Shown one piece after another: positions 30,501 to 58,156 of a stretch of 60,447 nucleotides of DNA. The DNA lies in NCBI GenBank assembly GCA_019456305.1, contig VRUD01000016.1:1-60447 (forward strand). The letters are read 5' to 3'. This DNA is from Cytophagales bacterium (lineage in GTDB: Bacteria; Bacteroidota; Bacteroidia; Cytophagales; VRUD01). Below the pieces are notes generated by a model. It did no database searches and was not told the DNA's origin. It saw only the letters and a list, made by a program, of their open reading frames with translations. Position 1 is the first letter of the stretch. Every line of letters starts with the position of its first letter. The position numbers and the translations under genes were made by a program.

Positions 30501-30554
30501 AGCTATTACAAAAATTAAAGTTGCAATATTTTCTATGTTAATTTTTGTTTTCAT
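27516..30554 (-). CDS. YadA-head/S74 chaperone surface protein with T9SS domain
   Basis: A 1012-residue secreted protein. After a signal peptide (ends SNIAFSQ) come two blocks of YadA-head-type repeats with the pattern S-x-A-x-G-x-x-T-x-A-S-G (about residues 195-345 and 455-530), a spacer, then an intramolecular chaperone/peptidase S74 domain starting WNTLSDQQLKTDITPF (Ser-Asp cleavage signature, about 770) through IGLIGQDLLQLAP, a coiled-coil-like stretch, and a type A T9SS tail (NQNDPNPFKESTIIRYFIP). S74 domains are best known from phage tail spikes, where they help trimers fold and then cut themselves off. Here the T9SS tail lies after S74. A strong Shine-Dalgarno AAGGAG is 7 bases before the ATG, unusual in this phylum. 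Antisense ORFs over the repeats are shadows. Confidence 0.87.
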   Translation of the reverse strand: MKTKINIENIATLIFVIAISSNIAFSQGNNWKLTGNNNVNGTDFIGTTIDEDFRIRTNNLLRMTILKNGNVRIENNLRVLGRVKIGPNSLTVGGIVAGGPDLITSTSGLLGIGGDPNFNEIRLGVGIQPVAGDFTLRLAGDGINTNGGILSEGTLGTGPTVPGFALFPRTLFFWYPRKAAIRAGHVVTTQWDDGNIGDFSAAFGESTTASGSHSFAAGVNTTASGGFSVAFGRNTKALQVMDFATGLNTEASGSASTAMGNGTIASGAISFAIGDSSIASEFVSTAMGKKTIASGLFSTAIGFHTTASGTNSTAMGFRTIASGQKTTSIGANVRALANNSVVIGVGLSNNPIINNSPNSLMVGFNSDVPSLFVERSDGTSGSLGKIGIGTTNTVFSLTLAGNGINTNGGIWAEGGTVSGIGPIVPTSNKIRMFWYPRKGAFRAGFANGTKWDDVNIGDFSTAFGDRTIALGDVSFAIGKLSEARGAVSIAMGNFAIANQSNSVAIGNNITAQSVNSFVMGNGTGSGIINNIENSLMIGFNSDIPTFFVGPSAGAGTTGNVKIGGTGTFQAPTEKLEVAGKTKTTDLQVTSGSGNIGDILTSVDALGNVTWAAPTAVPDGDWDLTTFPNDMIAQPTGNVGVGQFTAAPTAKLDVLRTLTTPPVANSTALNIVNEDLSSLVKIFRISFGLKSEATGLNLDNIGGLFTSQNAFNRNIGAQFIITNKTTTATNIGAIFVASDAPTGKNIAIQVLAGAVQKPGGGSWNTLSDQQLKTDITPFTDGLNVTKQINSVNYRYNGKAGTPTDRAYIGLIGQDLLQLAPYVVDTFYAKLDSADLTETALLSTNTGPLLFVAINAINELDSIKVSKVEFDSLKAIVTQCCSNQLSKPAGNEDNGYQELKEEFAQMKSILIAYGLYSDPKNVKLQVNEQRVILNQNDPNPFKESTIIRYFIPDNVNNAQLMIYDLTGKFIKEVPIEKGFGSIEVFASDLSSGIYSYSIVADGEVIDKKKMVLTK

Positions 30555-38687: not shown

Positions 38688-38942
38688 CTACAATTTTTGA
38701 TATTTTTTTGCATATAAATCTATCACCTTTTTTATCATTATCTGATACGGAATACCAATTTCTTTCGCTTTTCCTTTAAAGAATGCTATACTTCTTTTAT
38801 TTAAGTTTAATGTTATTTTTGCGGTGTCCTCTTTAAATATCAATTGATTTGGAGTAGGTAAAAAATCTTCAATAATTACAGATTCTACAATTCCATCAGC
38901 AATTGATTTAGGAGCGTTTTTATATTTTATTTCCTTTTTCAT
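38688..38942 (-). CDS. brnA: BrnA-like antitoxin
   Basis: An 84-residue protein with a ribbon-helix-helix-type C-terminus: ITLNLNKRSIAFFKGKAKEI followed by GIPYQIMIKKVIDLYAKK, the pattern of BrnA/CopG-like antitoxins. ATG 38942 is chosen; the frame is open to 38975. It overlaps the end of the toxin gene by 23 bases, so it is translationally coupled. BrnA neutralises BrnT and represses the shared promoter (family knowledge). Confidence 0.8.
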   Translation of the reverse strand: MKKEIKYKNAPKSIADGIVESVIIEDFLPTPNQLIFKEDTAKITLNLNKRSIAFFKGKAKEIGIPYQIMIKKVIDLYAKKYQKL

Positions 38943-39198
38943 ATATTTCTTTTCCTTCTCGCCAGTAACCGGCACCGAAAATTCTTATTTTTTTACCTCT
39001 ATAGGTAAACCGTACAGTAACTATTTTATTATTTACTTCTCCAAAACAAAAATATCTTTTTTCTTCTTTAGTGCTATGTTTTAAATTTTCAGCAATAATT
39101 CTGTCAGGATCAGCAAAAGCATACTGCGCTGTTTCAAAACTAATATTATGTTTTTCCTGATTAGCTTTATTTTTATTATTATCCCATTCAAAATCCAC
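38920..39198 (-). CDS. brnT: BrnT-like toxin
   Basis: A 92-residue protein with the BrnT signature: FEWDNNKNKANQEKHNISFE near the N-terminus, YAFADPDRI, EEKRYFCFGEV and VRFTYRGKKIRIFGAGYWRE. BrnT toxins are RelE-fold ribonucleases that slow translation. It is first in a two-gene operon with the antitoxin. The pair is bracketed by direct repeats, suggesting a mobile or duplicated cassette. Confidence 0.88.
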   Translation of the reverse strand: MDFEWDNNKNKANQEKHNISFETAQYAFADPDRIIAENLKHSTKEEKRYFCFGEVNNKIVTVRFTYRGKKIRIFGAGYWREGKEIYEKGNKI

Positions 39199-43963: not shown

Positions 43964-45403
43964 CTATTTCGTAGTATTGAACTTTCGTAATAACCGAGAT
44001 TCTTCAGCAACTTCATGTTTAGCAAAAACTTCAACTCCTGAATAATCTCCCTTGCCGACAACGGTTGGGAAATAACAATTCTCATTGCAAACCTTTGAAG
44101 TATCAACTTCCATTGTTCCGGTGACAAAGTGATGTAATTGTTGACCGACATCAGCGACACCAGACGGAGTAATAAATAAACTCAACATTTGCAAAACTTC
44201 CATTGATGCAAGATGTGAACTGAAAACGAAAACATTTTCATGAGCATTTATAAAAGCTGAATCTTTAAATCCTTTTATGTATGCTGGATCATCCATCATT
44301 CCTGATTTTTCAAGAACTGCATTTTTAGTTTTGTATTGACCCAAACATTCAAGGCAAGTTCGTTTGTAACCGACAGTTTGTGCTTTCCAATCAGCACCGA
44401 CAATGTTTGTGTTTCGCTTATTTGTTCTCACCATTATTCCGCCATCAATGACAGGAATCAATTGAGCATAAGCGATAAAGTTCAAAACCTGACGAGCCCA
44501 AGGTCTATCAACGCAACTGAAAAGAACATCACAGTTCAAAGCAGATTCAAAACCTTCTTTTTCACAGACACTGTATTCACAGCAATCAGTAGAAATATTT
44601 GGAGAAGTTGCACTTCTCTCAATTCCATCTTTGATTGCAAGAACTTTAGCACGACCAATATCACTCTTAAAAACATTAGTAAGACGGTCAAGATTTTTTT
44701 CTTCAACTGCATCAAAATCTATCAGAGTAAAATTTGAAATTCCAGTTCGTGAAAGTATTTCAGCTACGATACTGCCAACGCTTCCAAGCCCGACAATTCC
44801 AACTCTAAGCCGTGATAAATCTTCTTGCGTTCTTTCACCCCAAGCAGAAATTGTTCGGAGTTGTTTTTCAAGATCAAAGTTTGGTGCAAGTAAATTGTCA
44901 TTGAAAGTAATTTTCAAACCTTTACCAATCACACGAACTGTTTCACACCAGTCGCGATTGTATTTTCTTTTTTCGGTTTTGTCTTTCAGCCAAAACCTTG
45001 CACTCCAAGCACCATCAGTTCCAAGAGTTAATCCAAGCAAAGGCAAACCTGTTGTTGCAAAAACAGTAGGCGACATTCTTGTTTCAGCAGTTACATCATC
45101 TCTACTCATTCCCTGCCAACCGGGGAACGGATGCGAATGAAGGAATGCAATTCCTTTTTTTCGTTCAGTAGCAATTTTTAAAACCCGTTCAAAATATTCA
45201 GGCAGGAAACCAACATTACCATGAACCTCTCTATCATTTTCTTCAGGAAATATTATTTCCGTTACGATTCCACTAAACCTTTTGCCACCACTACTCGGAA
45301 CATAAGTAGCGAAACATAAATCTTCATCCCCATCTTCACGAATGAGATGATTGAATAATTGCTGATGAGTTTCATCAGTCATTACAACGCTAAAATTTTC
45401 CAT
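43964..45403 (-). CDS. JAB peptidase-E1 fusion of a ubiquitin-like system
   Basis: A 479-residue two-domain protein. Residues about 1-150 are a JAB/MPN isopeptidase: FLHSHPFPGWQGMSRDD gives the complete JAMM motif (His89, His91, Ser100, Asp103). Residues about 190-450 are a ThiF/E1 adenylating domain: VGIVGLGSVGS (nucleotide loop, 202-210), LIDFDAVEEKNLDRL with the acidic and Arg residues, CVDRPWARQ, and KRTCLECLG (Cys350, Cys353) as candidate thioester Cys. It should activate the C-terminus of the neighbouring ubiquitin-like protein and trim or remove it. It is last in a three-gene minus-strand operon, sharing one base with the E2-like gene's stop. Thiamine or molybdopterin synthesis is unlikely because of the JAB fusion and neighbours. 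Confidence 0.9.
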   Translation of the reverse strand: MENFSVVMTDETHQQLFNHLIREDGDEDLCFATYVPSSGGKRFSGIVTEIIFPEENDREVHGNVGFLPEYFERVLKIATERKKGIAFLHSHPFPGWQGMSRDDVTAETRMSPTVFATTGLPLLGLTLGTDGAWSARFWLKDKTEKRKYNRDWCETVRVIGKGLKITFNDNLLAPNFDLEKQLRTISAWGERTQEDLSRLRVGIVGLGSVGSIVAEILSRTGISNFTLIDFDAVEEKNLDRLTNVFKSDIGRAKVLAIKDGIERSATSPNISTDCCEYSVCEKEGFESALNCDVLFSCVDRPWARQVLNFIAYAQLIPVIDGGIMVRTNKRNTNIVGADWKAQTVGYKRTCLECLGQYKTKNAVLEKSGMMDDPAYIKGFKDSAFINAHENVFVFSSHLASMEVLQMLSLFITPSGVADVGQQLHHFVTGTMEVDTSKVCNENCYFPTVVGKGDYSGVEVFAKHEVAEESRLLRKFNTTK

Positions 45404-45753
45404 TACAGTTTTGCTAATAAATTTTTGATGTGTGCGAAATAGGTTTTCACTTTTCTATCAGTCCTGTTCCAATCAGGAAAAGGTCTGCTCCAATATTTCC
45501 ATTCACCACCAAATGCACTTGCATGAATGTTATTCGGAGGTTCAACCCAATCTTGAATTCCAATAGATTTAAAATGTGGTCCAGGTGGACAACTCATTGG
45601 ATAATCGTTTTGAACTTCAAACCCTATCTGCAATTTTTTTCCAATGTTCCGACCAATAGTAACTTCGTATTCAAACGAAACTTTGAGAGCATCCGGCTCT
45701 TGGACGGTAAACCCAAGAGCCGTTAGCTCTGCGATAAAATCTGATTTTGCCAT
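45403..45753 (-). CDS. E2-like protein of a ubiquitin-like system
   Basis: A 116-residue protein placed between the multiubiquitin and JAB-E1 genes. The strand pattern, the YPMSCPPGPHF segment (similar to the YP-x-x-PP strand of E2 enzymes) and the later FGGEWKYWSRPFPDW stretch fit the prokaryotic E2/UBC-like families linked to such operons. The only Cys in the protein is Cys55 in that YPMSCPP segment. No Cys is found downstream, where classical E2 enzymes keep theirs, so it either uses Cys55, acts without a thioester, or is a non-catalytic adaptor. It lies 11 bases after the multiubiquitin gene. Confidence 0.75.
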   Translation of the reverse strand: MAKSDFIAELTALGFTVQEPDALKVSFEYEVTIGRNIGKKLQIGFEVQNDYPMSCPPGPHFKSIGIQDWVEPPNNIHASAFGGEWKYWSRPFPDWNRTDRKVKTYFAHIKNLLAKL

Positions 45754-45764
45754 AGGTGAAAATT

Positions 45765-46310
45765 TTAGGATACAGGTGTTTCACCACGAAATACACTTAC
45801 AAACTTCATTGCCGGACACTTCATTTTTATTGGAGTTGTCGGAGTGTCTTTGTAAGATTTTTGGCTGCCATCATGATTGATTTGAACCAAGTAGTAATCA
45901 CTCACAGGAGTAATACCAGCCAACTCCAAAATTTGATTTGGAGTTAACTCCTTTTGGTCGGTGGTTTCAGGTTCACCATCAACAGTGTAGTGAAACACTT
46001 CAGGCGGTTTTACAACAAAATGTTCAATACCGGGCTTTGCCAAGTCCACTTTTTCGTTAAGATCAATTTTCTCAAAGTCGCAATGTTTCAACTTCTGATA
46101 AAGGGTATAACACTCTACCGGAGTTTTACATGCCTTTTCAAGAATCTCTTTTCCTGTTACAAACTGATGGTCAAAAACGAAATACTCGTTATCAATTTTC
46201 ACCTTATACCTTTTACCTACAGGAGGTTTTTTGTCGGACTTGGCGTAAGTTTCCAAGTCAATCACCTCATTTGCACCTTGTGCGTCTTGATTTTGTTCTT
46301 CTTTTTTCAT
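45765..46310 (-). CDS. Multiubiquitin protein (two ubiquitin-like domains)
   Basis: A 181-residue protein of the multiubiquitin family. After a 30-residue polar leader, the first beta-grasp domain starts RYKVKIDNEYFVFDHQFVTG and runs KEILEKACKTPVE to IEHFVVKPP; the second starts FHYTVDGEPETTDQKELTPN, with QILELAGITPVSDYYLVQI, and ends MKFVSVFRGETPVS. One Gly precedes five final residues, so the JAB domain of the neighbour may expose a Gly C-terminus by removing ETPVS (inference). First gene of the operon; its start faces the sigma-like gene across a 146-base control region. Confidence 0.9.
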   Translation of the reverse strand: MKKEEQNQDAQGANEVIDLETYAKSDKKPPVGKRYKVKIDNEYFVFDHQFVTGKEILEKACKTPVECYTLYQKLKHCDFEKIDLNEKVDLAKPGIEHFVVKPPEVFHYTVDGEPETTDQKELTPNQILELAGITPVSDYYLVQINHDGSQKSYKDTPTTPIKMKCPAMKFVSVFRGETPVS

Positions 46311-46335
46311 TTGAATAATTTTTGATTATACCTAT

Positions 46336-46434
46336 ATATGTTACCCTGATGATTATTTTTGCAGGTGGGTAATAAAGATTTTACAGAAAAGAATTTTTAT
46401 ATGACCTGCAAAAAAGGGTACTTTGATAACATAT
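46336..46434. promoter_or_regulatory. Divergent control region with inverted bipartite motif
   Basis: ATATGTTA (46336-46343), 12 bases, TTTTTGCAGGT (46356-46366) on the plus strand; ACCTGCAAAAA (46404-46414), 12 bases, TAACATAT (46427-46434), the same motif inverted with the same spacing. The left copy includes TATTTTTG (46354-46361), a TAnnTTTG box toward the plus-strand genes. The symmetry suggests a shared operator or paired promoters for both operons. Confidence 0.7.
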
Positions 46435-46456
46435 GTAAGTATGAAACAATTCTATA

Positions 46457-47077
46457 ATGAAAAACTCATATTCAGGAAAAGATGAAATCGACTGGAAGGA
46501 TTTACTACCCAAGCTTTATGCCTATACTCATTACTTGCTAAATAAAATGCGATGGTTTAGAGGAGAAGATGTAGATACCTACTTAAAGGGAAAAACGGTT
46601 GACGACTATGTCTATGGTGGGATAGAACAGTATTTGTTGTACCCGGAAAAATATGATCCTACAAAAAATCGTTCTTTGGCAAACTACATCAAGCTACATA
46701 TAATTCAAAATCTTGTTGGCAACGATGCCCGTTCCCCAGAAAATAAAAGAAGTGTTGATCCAATAATAGAAAATGATGTTGATACTGAAGATGACTTCGA
46801 ATATTCAGATAATATTTTGCTTGGTGTTTCTGAGGCTATGTTCGATCAAGATTTTGACTTTAACATGATTACTTCGTCTATCGAGGAAGAACTTAAATCA
46901 GATGAAGTTGCCGAAAAGATTTTCATCGGCCTTCGCTGTATGGGATATAAAAGGCGTGAAATAATAAAAGATACAGGATTAAGTGCAAATGATTTTGACA
47001 ATGGTATGAGACGACTAAACACGGTTCTAAATAATGTAGCAAAAAAATTCCAATTAAAAAAACCAGCAAAACTATGA
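46457..47077 (+). CDS. Sigma-factor-like protein
   Basis: A 206-residue protein. The first part (LPKLYAYTHYLLNKMRWFRG, then YLLYPEKYDPTKNRSLANYI and KLHIIQNLVGND) has the helix pattern and the P-x-x-x-SLANYI signature seen in region 2 of sigma-70-like factors. The C-terminal part (FIGLRCMGYKRREIIKDTGL, then SANDFDNGMRRLNTVLNNVA) has a region-4-like helix-turn-helix. It is short and acidic in the middle. It may direct transcription of the island, or act in another way on DNA. First of three genes whose ends overlap; stop and next start share ATGA. Confidence 0.65.
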   Translation: MKNSYSGKDEIDWKDLLPKLYAYTHYLLNKMRWFRGEDVDTYLKGKTVDDYVYGGIEQYLLYPEKYDPTKNRSLANYIKLHIIQNLVGNDARSPENKRSVDPIIENDVDTEDDFEYSDNILLGVSEAMFDQDFDFNMITSSIEEELKSDEVAEKIFIGLRCMGYKRREIIKDTGLSANDFDNGMRRLNTVLNNVAKKFQLKKPAKL

Positions 47078-47496
47078 ATGCTAATAACAAATACAGCAAC
47101 ACCGAATTCATCAGGTTTGTTCTTGGAAGTATGGATTTTATTAGCTCTGACAGTGGGAAGGCAAGAGAGTACATGTCATCTCAAGGGTTGAATGTTGATG
47201 CAATCGTTTCGGAAGGTCTTAAGCGAATTAAGAAATTGCAGATGCAAATTCAAGCAGGTAAGACACAAATGGAAATGATTTCAGCCGAGACCGTAAAACA
47301 GAAAGCAAAAGAATGGGTTGATTCTCTTTTAAACAATATTGATTTTTCTTTACCAGCACTCGTTAAAGAAGAAGAACTTTCTATGAGTTTTAGAAACATA
47401 GAATCTTTAAGCCAAGAGGACATCAAAAATATTTTGGTAAAACACTTTACCTTGAAATTTTTGGAAGAACAGAAGATAAAATCTAATGGACTTTAA
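47074..47496 (+). CDS. Unknown helical protein of the island
   Basis: A 140-residue protein predicted almost entirely helical, with charged heptads (EGLKRIKKLQMQIQAGKTQM and VKQKAKEWVDSLLNNIDF). No signal peptide or membrane segment; I recognise no family. It overlaps the sigma-like gene by 4 bases and the ImmA-type gene by 11, so it is made in step with both, perhaps as an adaptor or an inhibitor cleaved by the peptidase (inference). Confidence 0.6.
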   Translation: MNANNKYSNTEFIRFVLGSMDFISSDSGKAREYMSSQGLNVDAIVSEGLKRIKKLQMQIQAGKTQMEMISAETVKQKAKEWVDSLLNNIDFSLPALVKEEELSMSFRNIESLSQEDIKNILVKHFTLKFLEEQKIKSNGL

Positions 47497-48274
47497 ATAT
47501 TCCAAAGCTGAACTGATTGCCAAAAAAGTTTTGGAGGAATGTGGTCTTGACGACCCAACTCAATTTCCACTAAGTGAAATAATTTTAGGAAGAAAGGCAT
47601 TTTACGAAGAAGTTCCTTTACAAGGCAAGGATGGAGAAATTGTTTCTTATCGTGGCAATTCAATAATCCATGTCAACTCAGATATTCCGTTTGAATCAAG
47701 AAAGAGATTTGCCTCAGCACATGAACTTGGACATTACGAAATGCACAGAGATATACAACCTGTTTTTTCAGATACTGAAGAAGATATGATGAACTGGTAT
47801 AAAGCCGGACCTCAGGAAATGGAAGCTAATGAATTTGCGGCAGAATTCTTAATGCCTTCAGAAGTATTTTACAATGAATGTGCAAGAAAAAAATTTGGAC
47901 CCGATGTAATTGAACATTTGGCAAATCGTTTTCAAGTCAGCAAAACAGCAACAATTTTGAAATTTGTAAAGAGAGGAAATCACCCTGTAGTAATTGTATA
48001 TTGCAAAGACAATAAAATGAAATGGTGGAAACCCTCACATGACTTTCGTTACTTTTTAGAATTTGAGAAAGACAAGCCACCACCAACAGGTTCAGTTGCG
48101 TATGAATTATTTACTACCAAAAAAATTTATTCTAGTGATGAATCAAAGCAAGACATTTGGAAATCTGACTGGTTAAGGATGCGAAATGATGATGAACCTG
48201 ATTCAAGATTTTTTGAATACTGCTTATTCGTTAAGTCATACAATTATTCTATCAGTGTGATTTGGGAGAAATAA
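47486..48274 (+). CDS. ImmA/IrrE-type zinc peptidase
   Basis: A 262-residue protein. RFASAHELGHYEMHRD carries the zinc motif H-E-x-x-H (His79, Glu80, His83), and EMEANEFAAEFLMPSEVF gives the downstream Glu and the LMP segment standard in ImmA/IrrE (COG2856) peptidases. Such enzymes cleave repressors or anti-factors when triggered. The N-terminal 50 residues form the usual helical and beta part; the last 80 residues are a variable C-terminal domain. It has no Xre domain of its own, but an Xre protein and a sigma-like protein are neighbours. Likely target: a regulator of the island. Confidence 0.85.
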   Translation: MDFKYSKAELIAKKVLEECGLDDPTQFPLSEIILGRKAFYEEVPLQGKDGEIVSYRGNSIIHVNSDIPFESRKRFASAHELGHYEMHRDIQPVFSDTEEDMMNWYKAGPQEMEANEFAAEFLMPSEVFYNECARKKFGPDVIEHLANRFQVSKTATILKFVKRGNHPVVIVYCKDNKMKWWKPSHDFRYFLEFEKDKPPPTGSVAYELFTTKKIYSSDESKQDIWKSDWLRMRNDDEPDSRFFEYCLFVKSYNYSISVIWEK

Positions 48275-48309
48275 AATTTAAAAACAAAAATATCTCTGAC
48301 CATTTTCCA

Positions 48310-48317
48310 TACATTTG
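48310..48317 (+). promoter_or_regulatory. -7 box TACATTTG upstream of the PLD nuclease
   Basis: TACATTTG 26 bases before the nuclease ATG. No clear TTG upstream. Confidence 0.45.
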
Positions 48318-48342
48318 TTGAAACATTATCTTTCGGACAAGA

Positions 48343-49524
48343 ATGAATATTACACTTTTAGGACAAGGATATGAAGCCAAGTCGGAATATTCGGTAGGCA
48401 ATCAGCTAATCAAATTCTTTTCACAAAAAGAGTTTCACACTTTTACAGGCATCTCTGCATTTGTAAGTCAGGCAGGAGTTAATGGACTTTCAAAGCACAT
48501 TACAGCAGCGAAAAAGCATTTCAACATTATTACCATTGTTACAGGTGTTGACCAGAAAGGGACATCAAAAGAAGCGTTGGAAAAATTATTGAAACTGAAC
48601 ATCAACACTTTTGTTTTCTATCAACCTTCATTCACAATTTTTCACCCGAAAATTTATTTGTTTGAAGGTGCAGACAAATCGGAACTCATTATCGGTTCTT
48701 CAAACCTCACAGCACAAGGGTTGTTCACCAATGTTGAGGCATCGTTACTTGTTAGCATTGACAATAGCATTGAGGCAGACAGAAAAATTGTTGAGCAACT
48801 GAAAGATTATTTCAAAGGCATATTTGATTTCACCGACCCGAACCTGAAAAAACTTTCCAAAAAACTTATTGCTGATTTGGTAAGAGCTAATGTTGTTCCA
48901 ACGGAAGAAGAAAGGAAAGCAGCACTAGACAAAGCAGTAAAGGGAGAAAGAAAAGAAACTGAAAATATTATTTCAAAAATATTCCCGAAACGAGCAATTG
49001 CAAAAATTCCAAGTGAGTTCAGAGGAACATCAACAGGAAAAGCGAAAGCAGCCACAGCGAAAAAAATTCCAGTTGGTAAACCAACTGCACATGGTAAATT
49101 ACTTTGGACAAGAAAAAAACTGCCTTCTTCAAGTGTGCAGGGTGGCGGAGCAGGAACTAATCCGACAGGCGGGCTTCGTTTGGTTCAAGATGATTTTGTT
49201 TTGGGTAAAAAGAAAATTAGCCACACTACTTATTTTAGAAATAAACTTTTTGGAAAATACACTTGGAATAAAATCCGAAAAACTCCATTTGTTGAGATAG
49301 CAACCATTCCTTTTGAAATTACAATCAAAAGAAAATTCATTGGTAAGTTTGACCTTGAAGTAAGACACAAGCCAAGTGGTGAAGCGGGACAAGGAAATTA
49401 TACAACTTCAATTTCATGGGGTGAAGTTGGCAAAATAATCAGTAAAGCGAAACTCACAGGCAAGCGACTTGACATTTATGCACCAAAGGGAAAAGGCAAG
49501 CCATTCCACATTCTTATCAGTTGA
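48343..49524 (+). CDS. PLD-family restriction endonuclease (NgoFVII/BfiI-like)
   Basis: A 393-residue protein. The N-terminal 200 residues are a single phospholipase-D nuclease domain: FHPKIYLFEGADKSELIIGS, then SNLTAQG, gives the H-x-K plus S/N motif (His101, Lys103, Asn121). A Lys/Ala-rich linker (about 225-260) leads to a C-terminal domain (GKYTWNKIRKTPFVEIATIP, then FEITIKRKFIGKFDLEVRH) that may be a B3-like DNA-binding module as in BfiI. Such enzymes cut DNA as dimers without a metal ion (family knowledge). The adenine methyltransferase and controller gene lie just downstream, so this is probably the nuclease of a type II system. Confidence 0.82.
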   Translation: MNITLLGQGYEAKSEYSVGNQLIKFFSQKEFHTFTGISAFVSQAGVNGLSKHITAAKKHFNIITIVTGVDQKGTSKEALEKLLKLNINTFVFYQPSFTIFHPKIYLFEGADKSELIIGSSNLTAQGLFTNVEASLLVSIDNSIEADRKIVEQLKDYFKGIFDFTDPNLKKLSKKLIADLVRANVVPTEEERKAALDKAVKGERKETENIISKIFPKRAIAKIPSEFRGTSTGKAKAATAKKIPVGKPTAHGKLLWTRKKLPSSSVQGGGAGTNPTGGLRLVQDDFVLGKKKISHTTYFRNKLFGKYTWNKIRKTPFVEIATIPFEITIKRKFIGKFDLEVRHKPSGEAGQGNYTTSISWGEVGKIISKAKLTGKRLDIYAPKGKGKPFHILIS

Positions 49525-49571
49525 CATCGCTTTTAACTACCGATTGTTGAAAACTTTTTTTCAAAAAACAT

Positions 49572-49601
49572 TTGCCAGTTCATTTTATATATCTACCTTT
49601 G
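49572..49601 (+). promoter_or_regulatory. Promoter TTG-N19-TACCTTTG of the controller gene
   Basis: TTG 49572-49574, 19 bases, TACCTTTG 49594-49601. The start point would fall about 10 bases before ATG 49618, an almost leaderless message. Confidence 0.7.
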
Positions 49602-49618
49602 GACTGAAGTAGTCCAAA
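49598..49618. promoter_or_regulatory. C-box-like operator
   Basis: TTTGGACT (49598-49605), five bases, AGTCCAAA (49611-49618): perfect 8-base arms. The core GACT..AGTC is the same as the half-sites bound by controller (C) proteins of type II restriction-modification systems. It overlaps the -7 box and the start codon, so binding would repress the gene. Confidence 0.65.
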
Positions 49619-49935
49619 TGAAACTTGAAAAAACATTCGGTGATACGGTAAAAAAACTTCGTGGGGAAAAAAAATTACCCTTACGAGAAGTGGCAGAAGC
49701 ATTGAAGATTGACACTTCAATGTTGGGCAAGATTGAGAAGAACAATCGCAAACCGACCAAGCAACTGATTGAGAAGTTTGCAAGGTTTTTCAAAGTAAAC
49801 GACCGAGATTTGACGATTGCATTTCTAAGCGACACCGTTGCTTATCATATTATGGACGAAGAAGATTTTGCCAGTGAAGTTTTAAAAGTAGCAGAGAAAA
49901 AAGTAAAGTATTTAAAAACCATAAAAACTCCTTGA
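49618..49935 (+). CDS. Xre-family controller protein
   Basis: A 105-residue DNA-binding protein. The helix-turn-helix is in EKKLPLREVAEALKIDTSML, continuing GKIEKNNRKPTKQ (about 20-52), standard for Xre/C proteins. A C-terminal helix (DEEDFASEVLKVAEKKVKYL) may dimerise. ATG 49618 is the only sensible start and lies in the operator. It lies 3 bases before the methyltransferase gene, so the two are one transcript. Expected role: timing the expression of methyltransferase and nuclease. Confidence 0.85.
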   Translation: MKLEKTFGDTVKKLRGEKKLPLREVAEALKIDTSMLGKIEKNNRKPTKQLIEKFARFFKVNDRDLTIAFLSDTVAYHIMDEEDFASEVLKVAEKKVKYLKTIKTP

Positions 49936-49938
49936 CCG

Positions 49939-51549
49939 ATGAAGCTAATCACAGAAGCATCAGCCGAAAAATTAAGAGGTGGTTTTTACACCCCCGAACC
50001 CATAGCAGAATTCATTTTGCATTGGGGAATTAACGGAAGCGATGACTTTGACATACTTGAACCAAGTTGTGGTGTTGGAGTTTTTTTAGAGCAGCTTCAA
50101 AAACACAAACTGAAATACAAATCAATTACAGCAGTTGAACTTGACGAAGCAGAAGCGGAAAAAGCAGAACAAATAAATTTGAAGAACAAGCAAATCATCA
50201 ATGATGATTTTCACACTTACTGCAATAACACATTACAACGCTTTGATTTAATCGTAGGCAATCCACCATACATACGCTACCAGTTTTTTGACAGGCAGCA
50301 ACAAGTTGAAGCGGGTGACATTTTTATCAAAGCAGGTTTGACTTATTCAAAACTCACTAACGCTTGGGTTTCATTTGTTGTTGGTTCATCTCTCCTACTT
50401 AAAGAAAAAGGCGGAAGAATTGGTTTTGTTTTGCCAGCGGAGATTTTACAGGTTTCATTTGCCCAACAACTAAGAAATTTCATTGCACACTTTTACAATA
50501 AAATCAACATAATTTCATTTGAAAAACTTGTGTTTCCAAACATTCAGCAAGAAGTTGTTTTACTTCTTTGCGAAAAGAACGAAACCAAAAATCACAACAT
50601 TGAACACATTGAATTGAGAGATGCAAGTGAATTGCAAACGCTTGATGTTGCAAGATTGAAAAGCCCTAAAAAGAAAATTGATTTCAAGTCAAACAAATGG
50701 ACTTTCTATTTTTTGGAGCAAGAAGAAATTGACTTTTTAGAAAATATTTCAAAGCACAGGAATATTCCAACACTGGGTAAGTTTGCAAAAGTTGAAGTAG
50801 GAATTACAACTGGCTCAAACGATTTCTTCACCGTTCCATTGACAACAGTTGAAGAATATGACTTGCACGATTATGCAAGACCAATGGTAGGTAGAAGTGT
50901 TCAGGTAAATAGTGTAATCTTTACAGAGAAAGATTGGGAGAAAAATAAATTCTCGAAAGCTAAAGCGCACTTGCTTGTTTTCCCTGATGGAAAAAATCTT
51001 ACTCGTAAAAACGGTGCAGTAAAATATATTGAACACGGTGAGAGTTTGGAAATTCATAAAGGTTACAAAACAGGAATTCGTGATGATTGGTTTGTAGTTC
51101 CATCTATCAAAATTTCCGATGCGCTTTTTATTAGAAGAAATAATCTTTACCCAAGATTGATAATTAACCAAGCGAAAGCATATACTACGGATACTATGCA
51201 TCGTGTATTTGTGCGACCAGGGACAAACATCAAAGCATTGACAGCAAGCTATTACAATTCACTTTCCCTTGCGTTTACAGAGGTTTCAGGTCGAAGCCAC
51301 GGAGGCGGGGTTTTAGAGTTAATGCCAAATGAAGCAGAAAGAGTTTTGCTTCCATATCACACGGACAATGCTTCGTTACTTCCACAAATTGACAAGCTAA
51401 TCCGCAACAAGACAGACATTGAAGAAGTTTTGAAAATCACCAACCAAGTAATTTTGAAAGAACATTTTGGTTTGACACAAATGGAAATAAAGTTAGCTCA
51501 CAGCATTTGGAAAAAACTTTCTTCAAGACGATTAAACAGAGGTAAATAA
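49939..51549 (+). CDS. N6-adenine DNA methyltransferase (NPPY type)
   Basis: A 536-residue class I methyltransferase. FYTPEPIAEFIL (17-28) and LEPSCGVGVFLEQL bind S-adenosylmethionine, and FDLIVGNPPYIRYQFF (NPPY at 108-111) is the catalytic motif IV of gamma-class adenine methylases. Residues about 260-500 form the target-recognition region (KVEVGITTGSNDFF, VGRSVQVNSVIF, GRSHGGGVLELMPNE), as in TaqI/Eco57I-like enzymes. It protects host DNA from the adjacent PLD endonuclease. Target sequence cannot be read. Confidence 0.93.
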   Translation: MKLITEASAEKLRGGFYTPEPIAEFILHWGINGSDDFDILEPSCGVGVFLEQLQKHKLKYKSITAVELDEAEAEKAEQINLKNKQIINDDFHTYCNNTLQRFDLIVGNPPYIRYQFFDRQQQVEAGDIFIKAGLTYSKLTNAWVSFVVGSSLLLKEKGGRIGFVLPAEILQVSFAQQLRNFIAHFYNKINIISFEKLVFPNIQQEVVLLLCEKNETKNHNIEHIELRDASELQTLDVARLKSPKKKIDFKSNKWTFYFLEQEEIDFLENISKHRNIPTLGKFAKVEVGITTGSNDFFTVPLTTVEEYDLHDYARPMVGRSVQVNSVIFTEKDWEKNKFSKAKAHLLVFPDGKNLTRKNGAVKYIEHGESLEIHKGYKTGIRDDWFVVPSIKISDALFIRRNNLYPRLIINQAKAYTTDTMHRVFVRPGTNIKALTASYYNSLSLAFTEVSGRSHGGGVLELMPNEAERVLLPYHTDNASLLPQIDKLIRNKTDIEEVLKITNQVILKEHFGLTQMEIKLAHSIWKKLSSRRLNRGK

Positions 51550-51931: not shown

Positions 51932-54900
51932 TTACTTATTTATACCTACATTCTTCATGAACATACCCTTGTTGGTATATATTTGCAGGAAATAAATACC
52001 TTGTTCAAGCCCGGAAACATCCAATCTATAAGAATTCTTATCAATGAGTTTCTTAACTATTACAACCTGACCTAATGAATTGATTATTGTTATACTACGT
52101 AACTGGATATTAATAGCTTCAATGTTCAAAAGATTGTTTGCCGGGTTAGGATATATTTTCAAATTATTTGAAAGTTCAAGATCAAAAACACCTGAAACAG
52201 CTACAAATAAAGAATCTGAAGTTGCAGTACATCCATTTGTGTCAGTAACACTTACTGAATAAGAACCTGCAACTATTACTATATGGAATTGGAATGTATC
52301 ACCTGGCATAGGAATTCCATATAGCAGCCATTGATAAGAATTATAAGTAGTGTCAACTCCTAAAAGAGTATCAAATTGATTGATTACTGGAACAGGTAAA
52401 GGATTAACAGCCATCACCACAGCATTAGAAGTTGCAGGTGATCCGGTAGCACACGTTAAAGAAGAGGTCATGATACAAGTAATACTATCTCCATCGTTTA
52501 AGCCTGAAGTTGAAAAAATTGCTGAATTTGCACCTACAATACTTCCATTTACCTGCCATTGATAAGCCGGTGTACCTCCGCCATTTGTTGGTGTGGCAGT
52601 AAAGATCACGTTATCACCTCCACATATTGGATTATCACTTACTGATATGGCAACACTTGCCGGCAGGGATGGGGTCACAGTCATCGTAATAGCATTTGAA
52701 GTATCCGGTGAGCCAGTAACACAGCTTAATGATGAAGTCATTATACAGGTAACAACATCACCGTTATTTAAAATTGTAGTAGAATAAGTTGGTGAATTTG
52801 TACCAACATTGCTTCCATTTACCTGCCATTGATAAGCTGGTGTACCTCCACCATTTGTTGGTGTGGAAGTAAATATAACATTATCACCGCTACATATTGT
52901 ATCCGTATTCGAAGCTATAGAAACACTTGCAGGTAATGATGTATTTACAGTTACAGCAAGGCTTACCGGGTTGTTTGTGCAACCATTTGTATCTGTTTGA
53001 GTTACCTGGATATTACCGCTTGTTGATCCCCAATTTACAGTAATGGAATTGGTGCCCTGCCCGGAAAGTATGGTGGCTCCTGGAGGCGCTGTCCAATTGT
53101 AAACTGAACCTATTGTATTTATTACTGAATAAGCCACACCCGTTTCATTTTCACAAACTGATGTAATTCCTGTTATTGCAGAAGTTACTGGCAATGGATT
53201 TACAGTGATAACTACTAAACTGGATGGGCTTTCACAACCCGATACTGTTTCTGTCACATAATAAGTTGTTGAGCCAACAATTGTATCCGGTGTAAGCGTT
53301 GTTCCTGTATCAATAATCGTAGTTAATCCGAGATCAGAATACCAGGTGAGAATACCTCCTGAGCCTGCTGTTGCCGTTAGATCAGCCATAACATCGCCAT
53401 TACAATAGGTTGCATTTGTGCCTGCAATAGGAGCCGCTGGTGCACCTGGAGTAGTTATTATCAATGTATCTCCAGTTATTATGCAACCATTAGAGTCAAA
53501 TACTACTACTGAATAATTTCCGGTAGATAACCCCGTAAAAATTCCACTGCCAAAGAAAGTAGAACCTCCATCAATAGAATATTGTAAAGGTAGCGTACCA
53601 CCACTTGCAGTGATTGTGATCGTTCCGTCACTTGCACCACAAACAGAAACATTTGTTGATGATGCTGAATCAATGGATAGAGCAGGAGTGACTATAATGA
53701 TCATATCATCTGTAGAGTTGGTACAAGAGCCATTTGAAATGATCCATCTTAAAACAGTTGTATCACCAACCAAAAGACCTGTAACAACTGATACAGGCGA
53801 TGACGGAGTGGCGATGGTAGCTGTGCCTGAAACAACAGTCCAGGTTCCTGTTCCTATAACGGGTGAATTACCTGCTAATATAGCAATGGTGTCATAGCTG
53901 CAAAGAGTCTGGTCAGGTCCGGCATTAGCAGTAGTAGGTAGTAGATCCACCGCAATTAACATTGTGTCAACAGAACTTGTACAAGACCCGTTAGAGATAG
54001 TCCACGTTAAAGTAGCTGAAGCACCAGCAACGAGGCCTGTAACACCTGATGTAGGTGATGTAGGAATAGTGACTGTAGCTGTACCTGAAACAACAGCCCA
54101 TAATCCCGTACCTACTGCAGGTGTATTACTGGCAAGTGTTGTGGTAGTAATATTACATAGATTCTGGTCAGGGCCTGCATTTGCAACTGTAGGTAGTTGA
54201 TCAACATTAATAATTACAGAATCAATAGAGTTCGTGCATGAACCGTTTGAGATCGTCCATGTCAAAGTAGCTGACGCACTGGTTATTAGTCCGGTAACAC
54301 TTGACGTAGGTGAAGTGGGTGTAGTGATCGTAGCTGTACCGGAAACAACAGCCCAAATTCCCGAACCTACAGCAGGTGCATTACCAGTAAGTGTCGTTGT
54401 AGTAACATTGCATAAGTTTTGGTTGGGGCCTGCGTTGGCGGAAGTTGGCAGAGCATCAACAGAAATCACCGTAGTGTCTACTGAACTTAGACAAGACCCA
54501 TTAGAGATTGTCCATGCCAAAGTAGCTGAAGCACCGTTTATTAGTCCGGTAACCCCTGATGCTGATGAAGCGGGTGATGTGATCGTAGCTGTACCGACAA
54601 TAACAATCCAAACTCCCGTACCTACTATAGGCGTATTACCGGCAAGTGTGGTTGTTGTAACATTGCACATGTTCTGATCAGGGCCTGCATTGGCAGTTGT
54701 GGGCAGTTGGTCAACGTTAATAATGACAGAATCAACTGAGGTAGGGCAAGAGCCGTTAGAAATAGTCCATGTTAAAGTAGTTGAAGCCCCGGCTATTAGT
54801 CCTGTAACTCCTGATGCAGGTAAAGCAGGGGAAGTTATTGTAGCTGTACCGGAAACGACAGTCCATAATCCAGTACCTACTGCTGGTGTATTACCAGCAA

Positions 54901-57900
54901 GTGTTGTGGTAGTGATATTACATAGGTTTTGGTCAGGGCCCGCATTGGCAGTTGTAGGTAGTTGGTCAACTGTGATGATGACTGAATCAACGGAGCCTGG
55001 GCATGAGCCATTAGATAACGTCCATGTTAAGGTAGCGGATGCACCGACAATAAGTCCTGTAACTCCTGATGCTGGTGAAGCTGGTGTGGTGATCGTAGCT
55101 GTTCCTGAAATGACAGCCCAAATTCCTGTTCCTACTACTGGCGTATTACCTGCAAGTGTGGTTGTGGTAACATTGCATAGGTTCTGGTCAGAGCCTGCAT
55201 TAGCAGTTGCGGGCAGTTGGTCAACGTTTATATTGACAGTATCCACCGAGTTTGGGCATGAACCATTAGAGATTGTCCATGTCAAAGTAGCTGACGCACC
55301 GGTTATTAGTCCGGTAACACCTGATGTAGGTAAAGCTGGTGTGGTGATCGTAGCTGTTCCGGAAACGACAGCCCAAATTCCAGTTCCTACGGCAGGCGTA
55401 TTTCCTGCAAGTGTGGTTGTGGTAATATCACATAAGTTCTGGTCAGGGCCTGCATTGGCAGTTGTGGGCAACTGATCAACATTAACAATGACAGTATCAA
55501 AAGAGCTTGGGCATGAGCCGTTTGATATCGTCCATGTTAAGGTAGCGGATGCACCGACAATAAGTCCTGTAACTCCTGATGCTGGTGAAGCTGGTGTGGT
55601 GATCGTAGCTGTTCCTGAAATGACAGCCCAAATTCCTGTTCCTACTACTGGCGTATTACCTGCAAGTGTGGTTGTGGTAACATTGCATAGGTTCTGGTCA
55701 GAGCCTGCATTAGCAGTTGTGGGCAGTTGGTCAACGTTTATATTGACAGTATCCACCGAGCTTGGGCATGAGCCATTAGAGATTGTCCATGTCAAAGTAG
55801 CTGACGTACCGGTTATTAGTCCGGTAACACCTGACGTAGATGAAGTGGGTGTAGTGATCGTAGCTGTACCGGAAACGACAGTCCAAATTCCAGTACCTAC
55901 GGCAGGAATATTTCCTGCAAGTGTGGTTGTGGTAATATCACATAAGTTCTGGTCAGGGCCTGCATTAGCAGGTGTTGGTGTTTGATATACTAAAATAACA
56001 ACAGAATCATAAGGACTTTGACAACCGTTAACAGTTTGAGTTACATAGTAAATAGTAGTACCTATACCTGGAAAAATAGCAAAAGGAGAACCAGTTCCTA
56101 TCAAAGTGGTAAGTCCCGCATCAGAGAACCATTCTATACCGGTACCTGTAGCAGTGAGGTCAGCAACAGGGTCACCACTGCAATAGACTGCATCAGTTCC
56201 TGCTGTTGGTGCGGCAGGAATCGGATTTACAGTTACAGTAACAGTATCTTCACTGTCACAGTTATCAGTATTAGTTCCAATTACTATATATGTAGTGGTT
56301 GTAGATGGTGAAGCAGTAACGGTATCACCTGAAGTGGTATCTAAACCTGTGGATGGTGACCATGAATAATTATCTGCTCCACTGGCAATTAACAAAGTAG
56401 ATTGTCCTGTACATATTGTATCGCCTGGAGGTGTAACCGATACGATTGGATTGACATTTACACTCACTGTAACAGTACCAGTATCTGCACAACCAGGACT
56501 TGTTCCTATTACAGTATAAGTGGTAGTCGTTGAAGGAAATGCGATCACAGAGGAGCCGGTACCAGCGCTTAAGCTTGCTGAAGGTGACCATGAATAGGTT
56601 GTAAATCCTCCACTGGCATTTAATGTTGTAGAATCCCCTTCACATACAAAAGATGAGGGGCTTAACGTTAGGGTTGGACAAGCATCAATAACATTTAGTC
56701 TTACAAAAGAAGTTGAACTTAGTAATGACCAGGTTCCTGTACCGGCTGTATCTCTTAAAAATGATGTATATGATGGCTGATCAATATCACTTCCACTTGC
56801 CACAGCAACTGTATCATCAAAGTTAGGCTGGGCGATAACAGCGAGGTAAGCTGCAGGTGCAAGGATTGGAGTAATTAAGAATGGCAAGGTAATAAATCCA
56901 GAATTGATATTACCTACCTGAATAGTATAGTTGGCAGAAGAATCAATCGGTGTTAACGATCCGTCATATAGCTTAGCTTTAATTATACTACCGGCAACAG
57001 TAGCAGGATGAAGGTAAACGGAAACAGATAATGCTTCAGCCGAATTAGTGATTTCAAATGTATTGCCTAACTCGTAACTATTCCCTGCTCCGTTCCATAA
57101 ACCTGCACCGGTATAATTACCGTTATCTCTGGCATATACAGAATCGGAAACCACAAATGTGGCTGAATCAGAATTATCAGGGGGGAACTGTTCTGCTTCG
57201 TTTTGAGACAGTGTAAAGTCCATATTATAGTTGCCACCGGGCGAAGGCGTAAAGGATGTTGTCATGGTTAATAGTGAATCGGTTCCGGGTGATAATGTAA
57301 CGCCTGCAGGGCTGGCTCCGGAATAAGTACCACTACCGGTTATGTTAACACTAAGTATAACGTTGTTTTGAGGATCAGCGCCATTATTAGCACACCTACC
57401 TTCAAAGAATATGGAATCTATCTGGCTCTCAGGAATTGAAGAATAATAATCTACCGTATTAAGAGCAACATCATTATTATAAGGTGTATAAACAAAATTT
57501 GGACGAATAACAAATGCAAGTTGAAACCCACCTAAATTTTCAAGGTTATTGAACGCCCCGCCATTAATACTGGCAAAGGTTGTATTAGGTGTATAAATAT
57601 TATCAGAGTAAACACCAAATAAACTGTCACTTGGAGCATTGAATGCTTCAAGCGCTACAAAATAGGTGCCTGCAGCCAGAACTAAAGGCCCCCCGTTGAT
57701 TGGCAGCGTTAATATTGCAGAAGGCATATCTCCGGATGTAAGCGTATAATTACTTGATGCACCAAGCAAGGTGTTCGGTAATCCAGCTGCCATATTATAA
57801 ACTACTAATCTCATAACAGCGCCAACATTACCTGATACCCAGCATGTAATACTTTTCAGATTGTCTGTCGCTTGAAGTTGGTATGTTTGTCCAAAAATGT

Positions 57901-58156
57901 AATCATTACTGTCACCAGCCCATAGTGAACCCGAACCAGTGCCATCATCCCTTGCATAAACGGTATCTGTTACTTCAAAAGAACTGGACAGAGTATTGTT
58001 TCCCGGAACACAATCTGTTGAGTCCTGAGTAACAAGAAAATCAACATTATAAATACCTTGCCATGGTGGGGTATAAGTTGTGGATATTGTGAAATTTTGA
58101 CTTGCTGCAAATGGTATGTTAGCAGGGGGGGGTAGAACTACCGGAAAACGAGTCAT
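51932..58156 (-). CDS. Giant M43 protease, C-terminal part (frameshifted), T9SS tail
   Basis: Continuation of the gene at 58119-60170 after a poly-C frameshift; the true sequence starts near base 58130 (PPANIPFAASQNF). About 2070 residues: CARDB-like and jelly-roll segments (VYARDDGTGSGSLWAGDSND), Ig-like repeats of the SprB type, nine tandem repeats of about 85 residues (NAGPDQNLCNVTTTTLAGN, then WTISNGSCPSSVDTVNINVD), more Ig-like repeats, and a type A T9SS sorting domain (LKIYPNPANNLLNIEAINI). The repeats make a long stalk. The plus-strand ORFs over the repeat block (53610-55985) are antisense shadows. With seven instead of eight C the two parts join into about 2750 residues. Confidence 0.85.
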   Translation of the reverse strand: MTRFPVVLPPPANIPFAASQNFTISTTYTPPWQGIYNVDFLVTQDSTDCVPGNNTLSSSFEVTDTVYARDDGTGSGSLWAGDSNDYIFGQTYQLQATDNLKSITCWVSGNVGAVMRLVVYNMAAGLPNTLLGASSNYTLTSGDMPSAILTLPINGGPLVLAAGTYFVALEAFNAPSDSLFGVYSDNIYTPNTTFASINGGAFNNLENLGGFQLAFVIRPNFVYTPYNNDVALNTVDYYSSIPESQIDSIFFEGRCANNGADPQNNVILSVNITGSGTYSGASPAGVTLSPGTDSLLTMTTSFTPSPGGNYNMDFTLSQNEAEQFPPDNSDSATFVVSDSVYARDNGNYTGAGLWNGAGNSYELGNTFEITNSAEALSVSVYLHPATVAGSIIKAKLYDGSLTPIDSSANYTIQVGNINSGFITLPFLITPILAPAAYLAVIAQPNFDDTVAVASGSDIDQPSYTSFLRDTAGTGTWSLLSSTSFVRLNVIDACPTLTLSPSSFVCEGDSTTLNASGGFTTYSWSPSASLSAGTGSSVIAFPSTTTTYTVIGTSPGCADTGTVTVSVNVNPIVSVTPPGDTICTGQSTLLIASGADNYSWSPSTGLDTTSGDTVTASPSTTTTYIVIGTNTDNCDSEDTVTVTVNPIPAAPTAGTDAVYCSGDPVADLTATGTGIEWFSDAGLTTLIGTGSPFAIFPGIGTTIYYVTQTVNGCQSPYDSVVILVYQTPTPANAGPDQNLCDITTTTLAGNIPAVGTGIWTVVSGTATITTPTSSTSGVTGLITGTSATLTWTISNGSCPSSVDTVNINVDQLPTTANAGSDQNLCNVTTTTLAGNTPVVGTGIWAVISGTATITTPASPASGVTGLIVGASATLTWTISNGSCPSSFDTVIVNVDQLPTTANAGPDQNLCDITTTTLAGNTPAVGTGIWAVVSGTATITTPALPTSGVTGLITGASATLTWTISNGSCPNSVDTVNINVDQLPATANAGSDQNLCNVTTTTLAGNTPVVGTGIWAVISGTATITTPASPASGVTGLIVGASATLTWTLSNGSCPGSVDSVIITVDQLPTTANAGPDQNLCNITTTTLAGNTPAVGTGLWTVVSGTATITSPALPASGVTGLIAGASTTLTWTISNGSCPTSVDSVIINVDQLPTTANAGPDQNMCNVTTTTLAGNTPIVGTGVWIVIVGTATITSPASSASGVTGLINGASATLAWTISNGSCLSSVDTTVISVDALPTSANAGPNQNLCNVTTTTLTGNAPAVGSGIWAVVSGTATITTPTSPTSSVTGLITSASATLTWTISNGSCTNSIDSVIINVDQLPTVANAGPDQNLCNITTTTLASNTPAVGTGLWAVVSGTATVTIPTSPTSGVTGLVAGASATLTWTISNGSCTSSVDTMLIAVDLLPTTANAGPDQTLCSYDTIAILAGNSPVIGTGTWTVVSGTATIATPSSPVSVVTGLLVGDTTVLRWIISNGSCTNSTDDMIIIVTPALSIDSASSTNVSVCGASDGTITITASGGTLPLQYSIDGGSTFFGSGIFTGLSTGNYSVVVFDSNGCIITGDTLIITTPGAPAAPIAGTNATYCNGDVMADLTATAGSGGILTWYSDLGLTTIIDTGTTLTPDTIVGSTTYYVTETVSGCESPSSLVVITVNPLPVTSAITGITSVCENETGVAYSVINTIGSVYNWTAPPGATILSGQGTNSITVNWGSTSGNIQVTQTDTNGCTNNPVSLAVTVNTSLPASVSIASNTDTICSGDNVIFTSTPTNGGGTPAYQWQVNGSNVGTNSPTYSTTILNNGDVVTCIMTSSLSCVTGSPDTSNAITMTVTPSLPASVAISVSDNPICGGDNVIFTATPTNGGGTPAYQWQVNGSIVGANSAIFSTSGLNDGDSITCIMTSSLTCATGSPATSNAVVMAVNPLPVPVINQFDTLLGVDTTYNSYQWLLYGIPMPGDTFQFHIVIVAGSYSVSVTDTNGCTATSDSLFVAVSGVFDLELSNNLKIYPNPANNLLNIEAINIQLRSITIINSLGQVVIVKKLIDKNSYRLDVSGLEQGIYFLQIYTNKGMFMKNVGINK
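53690..55980 (-). repeat. Nine 255-bp tandem repeats in the M43 protein
   Basis: Units of 255 bases (85 codons); the marker CTGGTCAG..CCTGCATT recurs at 54918, 55173, 55428, 55683 and 55938. Alternate units are nearly identical: 55019-55209 repeats at 55529-55719, a 510-base shift, so two-unit blocks were copied recently. Confidence 0.88.

Follow-up and report, generated by a model that had tools for sequence, protein, structure and literature searches.

We examined a 60,447-nt stretch of DNA, contig VRUD01000016.1 of the Cytophagales bacterium assembly GCA_019456305.1 (hereafter the window), in whose region 43964-51549 three overlapping plus-strand genes, here termed SIG, MID and CapP, lie divergent to a minus-strand operon encoding ubiquitin-like proteins. 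Based on sequence comparison and structural models, we propose, with a probability of roughly two in three, that this gene triad is a self-contained and portable transcription switch which would control the divergent immune operon. An earlier interpretation made from the letters alone (the sequence-only reading) had placed the JAB-E1, E2-like and multiubiquitin genes on the minus strand and the triad, with 4- and 11-base overlaps, on the plus strand; all of these positions and overlaps proved exact. Its view of the triad as a regulatory module with the ubiquitin-like operon as the probable target is upheld by the twin promoter-like elements which the two share.

Composition and recurrence of the triad

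The third gene of the triad (47486..48274, plus strand) encodes a 262-aa M78 zinc peptidase with a C-terminal domain. It had previously been called ImmA-type, and while the peptidase family was borne out (Peptidase_M78, 4.4e-18), the assignment could be sharpened to CapP over the full length, as the PADLOC capP model covers residues 7-261 at 1.4e-66; the protein also matches the solved CapP structure 7t5t (5.7e-15) and carries the AHELGH motif. CapP is known from the CapH+CapP pair, in which CapP is a protease activated by single-stranded DNA (ssDNA) and CapH a helix-turn-helix (HTH) repressor (Lau et al. 2022, as related in PMC10904395 and PMC13373217).

A CapP alignment, scanned against genome contigs, recruited 80 loci, and 80 ordered triads, with the window locus counted in, could be measured. 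SIG-like, MID-like and CapP genes follow one another in that order at nearly all of the recruited loci, and in 40/80 triads the overlap of SIG and MID is exactly 4 bases; gene calls outside the window were mechanical, and some of the small open reading frames (ORFs) are spurious. Since these loci had been selected by CapP, 395 Bacteroidota genomes were searched for CapP as a less biased sample. Among the 38 full-length CapP loci found there, a manual count assigned SIG to 20 (including L228, placed in this class by hand as the automatic labels missed its SIG and MID matches), a second sigma family to 12, an HTH CapH to five and neither to one. A sigma factor of one family or the other stands upstream at 32/38 of these loci, and pairing with a sigma factor is thus apparently the most frequent arrangement of CapP in Bacteroidota.

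SIG (46457..47077, plus strand; 206 aa) is read as a divergent sigma factor of the extracytoplasmic function (ECF) type, its sigma activity being predicted from profile and fold. The family profile matches sigma-H 3mzy across both regions (residues 49-190, 1.7e-5), as well as RpoE 9n9q (9e-4) and the sigma-4-like 1s7o; pentatricopeptide designs, which ranked first in the same Protein Data Bank (PDB) search, were rejected as artefacts composed of sums of 6-9 bit repeats over 32 residues. The AlphaFold 2 (AF2) model has a sigma-like fold of two helical domains joined by a disordered linker, with a predicted local distance difference test score (pLDDT) of 80, and the leading Foldseek matches of this model are ECF sigma factors (top SigH 6jcx, E 5.6e-3, probability 1.00), with region 4 alone reaching a template-modelling (TM) score of about 0.7 (target-normalised) for some of the matches. 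Weak Sigma70_r2/r4 Pfam matches occur in a few members of the family only, and the profile also recruits many ECF-sized candidate ORFs across the phylum; viral contigs searched with the window protein (P0004) contained no relatives. The second sigma family, which occupies the position of SIG beside CapP, matches Sigma70_r2 above the Pfam cut-off (5.5e-9, 6.3e-9 and 6.7e-7), and one of its members does so for r4 as well. At L041 (8577-9813), without CapP, a multiubiquitin operon faces two divergent genes, one for a clear ECF sigma factor (Sigma70_r4_2, 8e-11) and one for a protein of 203 aa.

MID (47074..47496, plus strand; 140 aa) is a small protein, all-helical in its AF2 model (pLDDT 81), and our candidate for both the anti-sigma factor and the CapP substrate. 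The PADLOC capH model is matched by 33 of 65 MID proteins (best 2.2e-6), every other model by only one, and the alignments to it, where listed, run to residue 100-102 of a profile 103 residues long, that is to its C-terminal end. The tail of MID contains an [FY]-R-N motif (F/Y in 57, R in 50 and N in 53 of the 65 proteins), which in the window is F106-R107-N108 (47389..47397, plus strand) and sits in the loop that connects helix 93-100 to helix 114-138, a region which, judging by its conservation, may be where CapP would cleave. In the 395-genome sample, the five CapH proteins with an HTH have ARNL, MRNV, MRNL or YRNI at the equivalent place. In Deinococcus, the related protease PprI cuts the regulator DdrO in a C-terminal loop which includes Arg118, a residue modelled in contact with ssDNA (PMC10904395). 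Furthermore, the MID of locus L042 (9818-11452) forms a fusion with an M78 peptidase domain. Given the CapH-like tail, the [FY]-R-N motif, the parallel with PprI/DdrO and this fusion, we infer that MID is a CapP substrate, in which a sigma-binding part would take the place of the HTH of CapH. The long C-terminal region of the L042 fusion resembles a macro domain by eye, Pfam confirming M78 only, and at L065 (6391-8580) the gene beside SIG joins a MID-like N-terminus to an SNF2 helicase, in a module without CapP.

The sequence-only reading singled out the pairing of the triad with multiubiquitin, and held that a triad occurring mostly without multiubiquitin genes would mean a chance pairing. 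Specificity did not hold, as multiubiquitin lies within 5 kb of only 17/80 CapP-recruited triads and most triads lie elsewhere, but neither did chance: the sigma-CapP triad is present, in divergent orientation, at 7/25 multiubiquitin loci of the 395-genome sample (the L042 fusion counted in), for which a rough chance estimate, computed as 7 of 31, gives p about 1e-20, and chance neighbourhood was rejected. The other operons found divergent to triads are CBASS (cyclic oligonucleotide-based antiphage signalling system) operons with SMODS cyclases and 2TM-NUDIX or Cap15 effectors, Pycsar (pyrimidine cyclase system for antiphage resistance) cyclases with an E2-type protein, E1-E2 CBASS with Cap3, E1-E2 operons with an LmuA/MBL-type protein, and Tn7-like TnsA/TnsB/TniB genes. 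The variety of these operons indicates a general controller. Moreover, a CapP 84% identical to that of the window adjoins a different ubiquitin-operon subtype (L066), and a ubiquitin operon nearly orthologous to that of the window (E1 match 2e-221) adjoins the second sigma family (L047); controllers and effectors have therefore been exchanged between loci.

Several features of these neighbourhoods were recorded in passing. At L064 and L094-L097 (e.g. L097, 3467-9000) SIG-MID-CapP is divergent to TnsA (PF08722), a Mu/rve transposase and TniB, a placement which suggests damage-controlled transposition. Triads at L073 (4987-5325), L075 and L079 are divergent to a short DUF1508 gene (PF07411, the YegP family). 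A small conserved ORF of about 57-77 aa is often the first gene of divergent CBASS and Pycsar operons (L114, L115, L119 and others), and its ATG-GCA-ACA start region is repeated across the intergenic regions of these loci.

Twin promoter-like elements

Both upstream regions in the window carry CTGCAAAAA-N10-GRTAACATA, on opposite strands. The immune-facing element, CTGCAAAAA-N10-GGTAACATA (46337..46364, minus strand), and the sigma-facing element, CTGCAAAAA-N10-GATAACATA (46406..46433, plus strand), are both zero-mismatch matches, mirror images of one another and identically spaced. The 4.25 Mb genome has no exact site besides these two, and the next best sites carry 2 mismatches; as no further site with fewer than 2 mismatches was found in the genome, there is no wider regulon at this stringency.

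The promoter analysis covered 77 non-redundant upstream regions, with 502 intergenic regions as controls. A motif trained unsupervised on one strand of the 77 regions was found again, mirrored, on the opposite strand: both copies score at least 10 bits in 45/77 loci against 0/502 controls, and mirrored pairs at 8 bits occur in 50/77 as compared to 0.4% of shuffles. The consensus is TGGCAAAAAA; on either side, the start of AGCATA follows that of GGCAAA by about 21 bp, and this start-to-start spacing of 21 bp within each copy is constant. The copies usually overlap by about 6 bp and those of the window stand apart, and they are therefore largely independent sequences. The -10-like hexamers of the two copies agree within loci, with 0.77 mismatches as against 2.16 (0/5000 permutations).

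The immune-facing copy tracks the identity of SIG and not the class of operon it faces. Across 43 loci, the more similar the SIG proteins, the more similar are their immune-facing motifs (Mantel r -0.52, 0/2000), and of 15 core positions 7.4 differ between loci with the same operon class and a distant SIG, as opposed to 3.7 between loci with a different class and a similar SIG. L047, with the second sigma family, lacks the window motif. On the immune side there is also depletion of TANNTTTG, the primary promoter signature of Bacteroidota (2/77 versus 92/502, p 1e-4).

The proposed switch and its alternatives

These observations may be accommodated in the following scheme. In the resting state MID would keep the ECF-like SIG inactive, until DNA damage or phage replication generates ssDNA and thereby activates the CapP protease. 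Active CapP would then cleave the CapH-like C-terminal tail of MID, and SIG, once freed, would act with RNA polymerase to fire the two mirror-image promoters of the common intergenic region. One of these would drive the triad operon itself, yielding more CapP by positive feedback, while the other would drive the immune operon, here that of multiubiquitin, the inactive E2 and JAB-E1, with a presumed antiviral outcome.

A number of results weigh against this scheme. The whole-protein Foldseek TM-scores of SIG are low (about 0.3), and the single SIG sequence of the window has no Pfam match and likewise nothing in NCBIfam. PDB profile and fold searches for MID gave no credible match, and a model of the MID tail lifts only 2/5 HTH CapH proteins above other XRE proteins. 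The presumed ssDNA activation of the window CapP is transferred by analogy from other CapP/PprI proteins. Promoter and triad may, moreover, be inherited jointly as a cassette, and linkage alone could give the correlation between SIG and motif. Finally, the mirror-image motif might serve as an operator in place of two promoters: in this alternative the motif is one long palindromic site to which SIG (or SIG with MID) binds as a repressor, CapP relieving the repression. The copies are indeed inverted repeats with a span of usually about 58 bp, resembling a dimer site, and CapH+CapP works by derepression (PMC13373217). However, the copies lie at variable distances from one another (-54 to -62, with -95 for those of the window) while the distance between the -35- and -10-like parts within a copy does not, and the ECF-like fold of SIG, the true sigma-70 domains of the second family at the equivalent position and the depletion of TANNTTTG on the immune side also speak for promoters, so that we regard a palindromic operator as unlikely.

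A different arrangement of the same parts would have SIG as a sigma factor that is itself cut by CapP, or MID as a sigma cofactor or CapP regulator in place of an anti-sigma factor. MID has no known anti-sigma fold and its binding to SIG is a prediction only, but it is MID and not SIG that resembles the CapP substrate CapH, and MID is encoded between SIG and CapP in overlapping genes and is fused to M78 in L042, which makes this arrangement rather improbable. We consider it very improbable that the triad is an unrelated neighbour in a defence island, with no regulatory link to the ubiquitin operon. The same island does contain an independent type II restriction system, and most triads adjoin other operons; against this stand the recurrent divergent placement beside known immune operons, the uniqueness of the common motif in the genome and the covariation of its two copies. 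A sigma/anti-sigma/protease switch thus remains our preferred reading of the triad.

Probable target operon, neighbouring genes and known controllers

The minus-strand operon is of a known kind, similar to polyUbl type 6e and Bub operons. Multiubiquitin (45765..46310, minus strand; 181 aa) has two ubiquitin-like domains, PF14452 (Multi_ubiq) matching in two stretches at 6.7e-18, and ends in FRGETPVS, without Gly-Gly. The Prok-E2_E-like protein (45403..45753, minus strand; 116 aa) was identified through two relatives that match PF14462 (1.8e-6 and 4.9e-6), which agrees with its earlier description as E2-like. No conserved cysteine was found across six aligned sequences, the sole cysteine of the window protein, Cys55, being Ala in 4/5 relatives and Pro in 1/5; lacking a catalytic cysteine, the protein is probably inactive. 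The 479-aa fusion of a JAB peptidase and an E1-like ThiF adenylyltransferase (43964..45403, minus strand; ThiF 9e-30) contains a JAMM-like motif, HSHPFPGWQGMSRDD, and a conserved CxxC...CxxxC pattern formed by the invariant cysteines 350, 353, 439 and 443. These resemble the zinc site of ThiF/MoeB, and the pattern is probably a zinc site. A Cys350 mutant had been proposed, but as Cys350 forms part of this zinc-like site, such a mutant would be no test of catalysis. The operon is the probable target of the switch; with an inactive E2 and no Gly-Gly tail, conjugation as its effector step is no more than a possibility.

The tandem ubiquitin-like protein, JAB-E1 fusion and inactive stand-alone E2/RWD-like protein of the window correspond to row 6e of Iyer et al. 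(2006), which lists a tandem ubiquitin-like protein, a stand-alone E2-like protein without catalytic cysteine and JAB-E1 (PMC1779556, accessible part), where no sigma-factor controller is mentioned. Unlike these operons, that of the window has no gene for a DUF6527-like metal-binding protein, which is found in other subtypes (e.g. L066), and the assignment to type 6e is made with the reservation that this protein is treated as accessory. Phage protection by Bub operons is undemonstrated according to PMC13373217.

Directly 3' of CapP (48343-51549), family searches confirmed the PLD nuclease, Xre protein and methylase of the sequence-only reading: an NgoFVII-like nuclease (PLDc_2 4.7e-9 / RE_NgoFVII 1.7e-6), an XRE controller (HTH_3, 1.1e-9) and an M.Eco57I-type methylase (M_Eco57I_C, 4.4e-37). 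The notion that this type II restriction system belongs to the same module was rejected; in relatives the restriction genes are absent downstream of triads, and the system is therefore a separate neighbour and probably independent. The window also contains a BrnT toxin (PF04365, 1.5e-22) with a CopG-type antitoxin (38688-39198) and large repetitive surface proteins at 51932-58156 and 27516-30554, one of 2074 aa having tandem repeats and a sorting-like C-terminal end and the other, of 1012 aa, YadA-like head repeats, both judged by eye.

Among known controllers, the triad is closest to CapH+CapP, with which it shares a CapP homologue, a substrate-like tail on the partner and a position at the promoter of immune operons, CapH+CapP being found at those of CBASS and Bub operons; CapW or CapH+CapP stands at 219/544 Bub operons (PMC13373217). 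The partner in the triad is, however, a sigma factor with a tail-bearing helical protein in place of an HTH repressor, the layout is divergent with twin promoter-like elements, and the switch would act by activation with positive feedback and not by derepression. No helix-turn-helix family was matched by the window MID (P0005), and the triad is therefore not CapH+CapP, although CapP is common to both. CapK+CapS, a kinase and a repressor, are DNA-damage controllers beside CBASS, Bub and yegP (PMC13373217); the triad is likewise divergent to DUF1508 genes (L073), but uses a protease and a sigma factor. PprI/DdrO of Deinococcus offers an ssDNA-activated M78 protease that cuts an Arg-containing C-terminal loop of its regulator (PMC10904395), as the triad may do, yet DdrO represses repair genes and no sigma factor is involved. 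The accessible part of PMC13373217 (2026) names CapH alone as the partner of CapP and does not mention a sigma factor, and a literature search for CBASS with a sigma factor and a metallopeptidase found none; in both cases an earlier mention elsewhere, including preprints, is possible. The triad is thus a variant of CapP control for which no earlier description was found, and which probably turns antiviral gene sets on upon DNA damage.

For Bacteroidota as a whole, we think it fairly likely that CapP is usually partnered not by a repressor but by a dedicated ECF sigma factor, kept in check by an anti-sigma factor that can be cleaved, that these make up a portable switch with positive feedback which has moved among CBASS, Pycsar, ubiquitin-like, MBL and Tn7-like operons, and that alternative sigma factors freed by a cytoplasmic M78 protease serve antiviral immunity in this phylum. 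Immune operons endanger the host and need to stay off, and the described controllers that were found (CapW, CapH+CapP and CapK+CapS) are repressors; if true, a switch made of sigma factor, anti-sigma factor and protease would work the other way round, by activation with positive feedback, and would account for one controller serving many different systems. With regulator and effector exchanged between them, the loci amount to a promoter-swap series provided by nature, and the promoter signature may be used to find immune operons that are as yet unknown.

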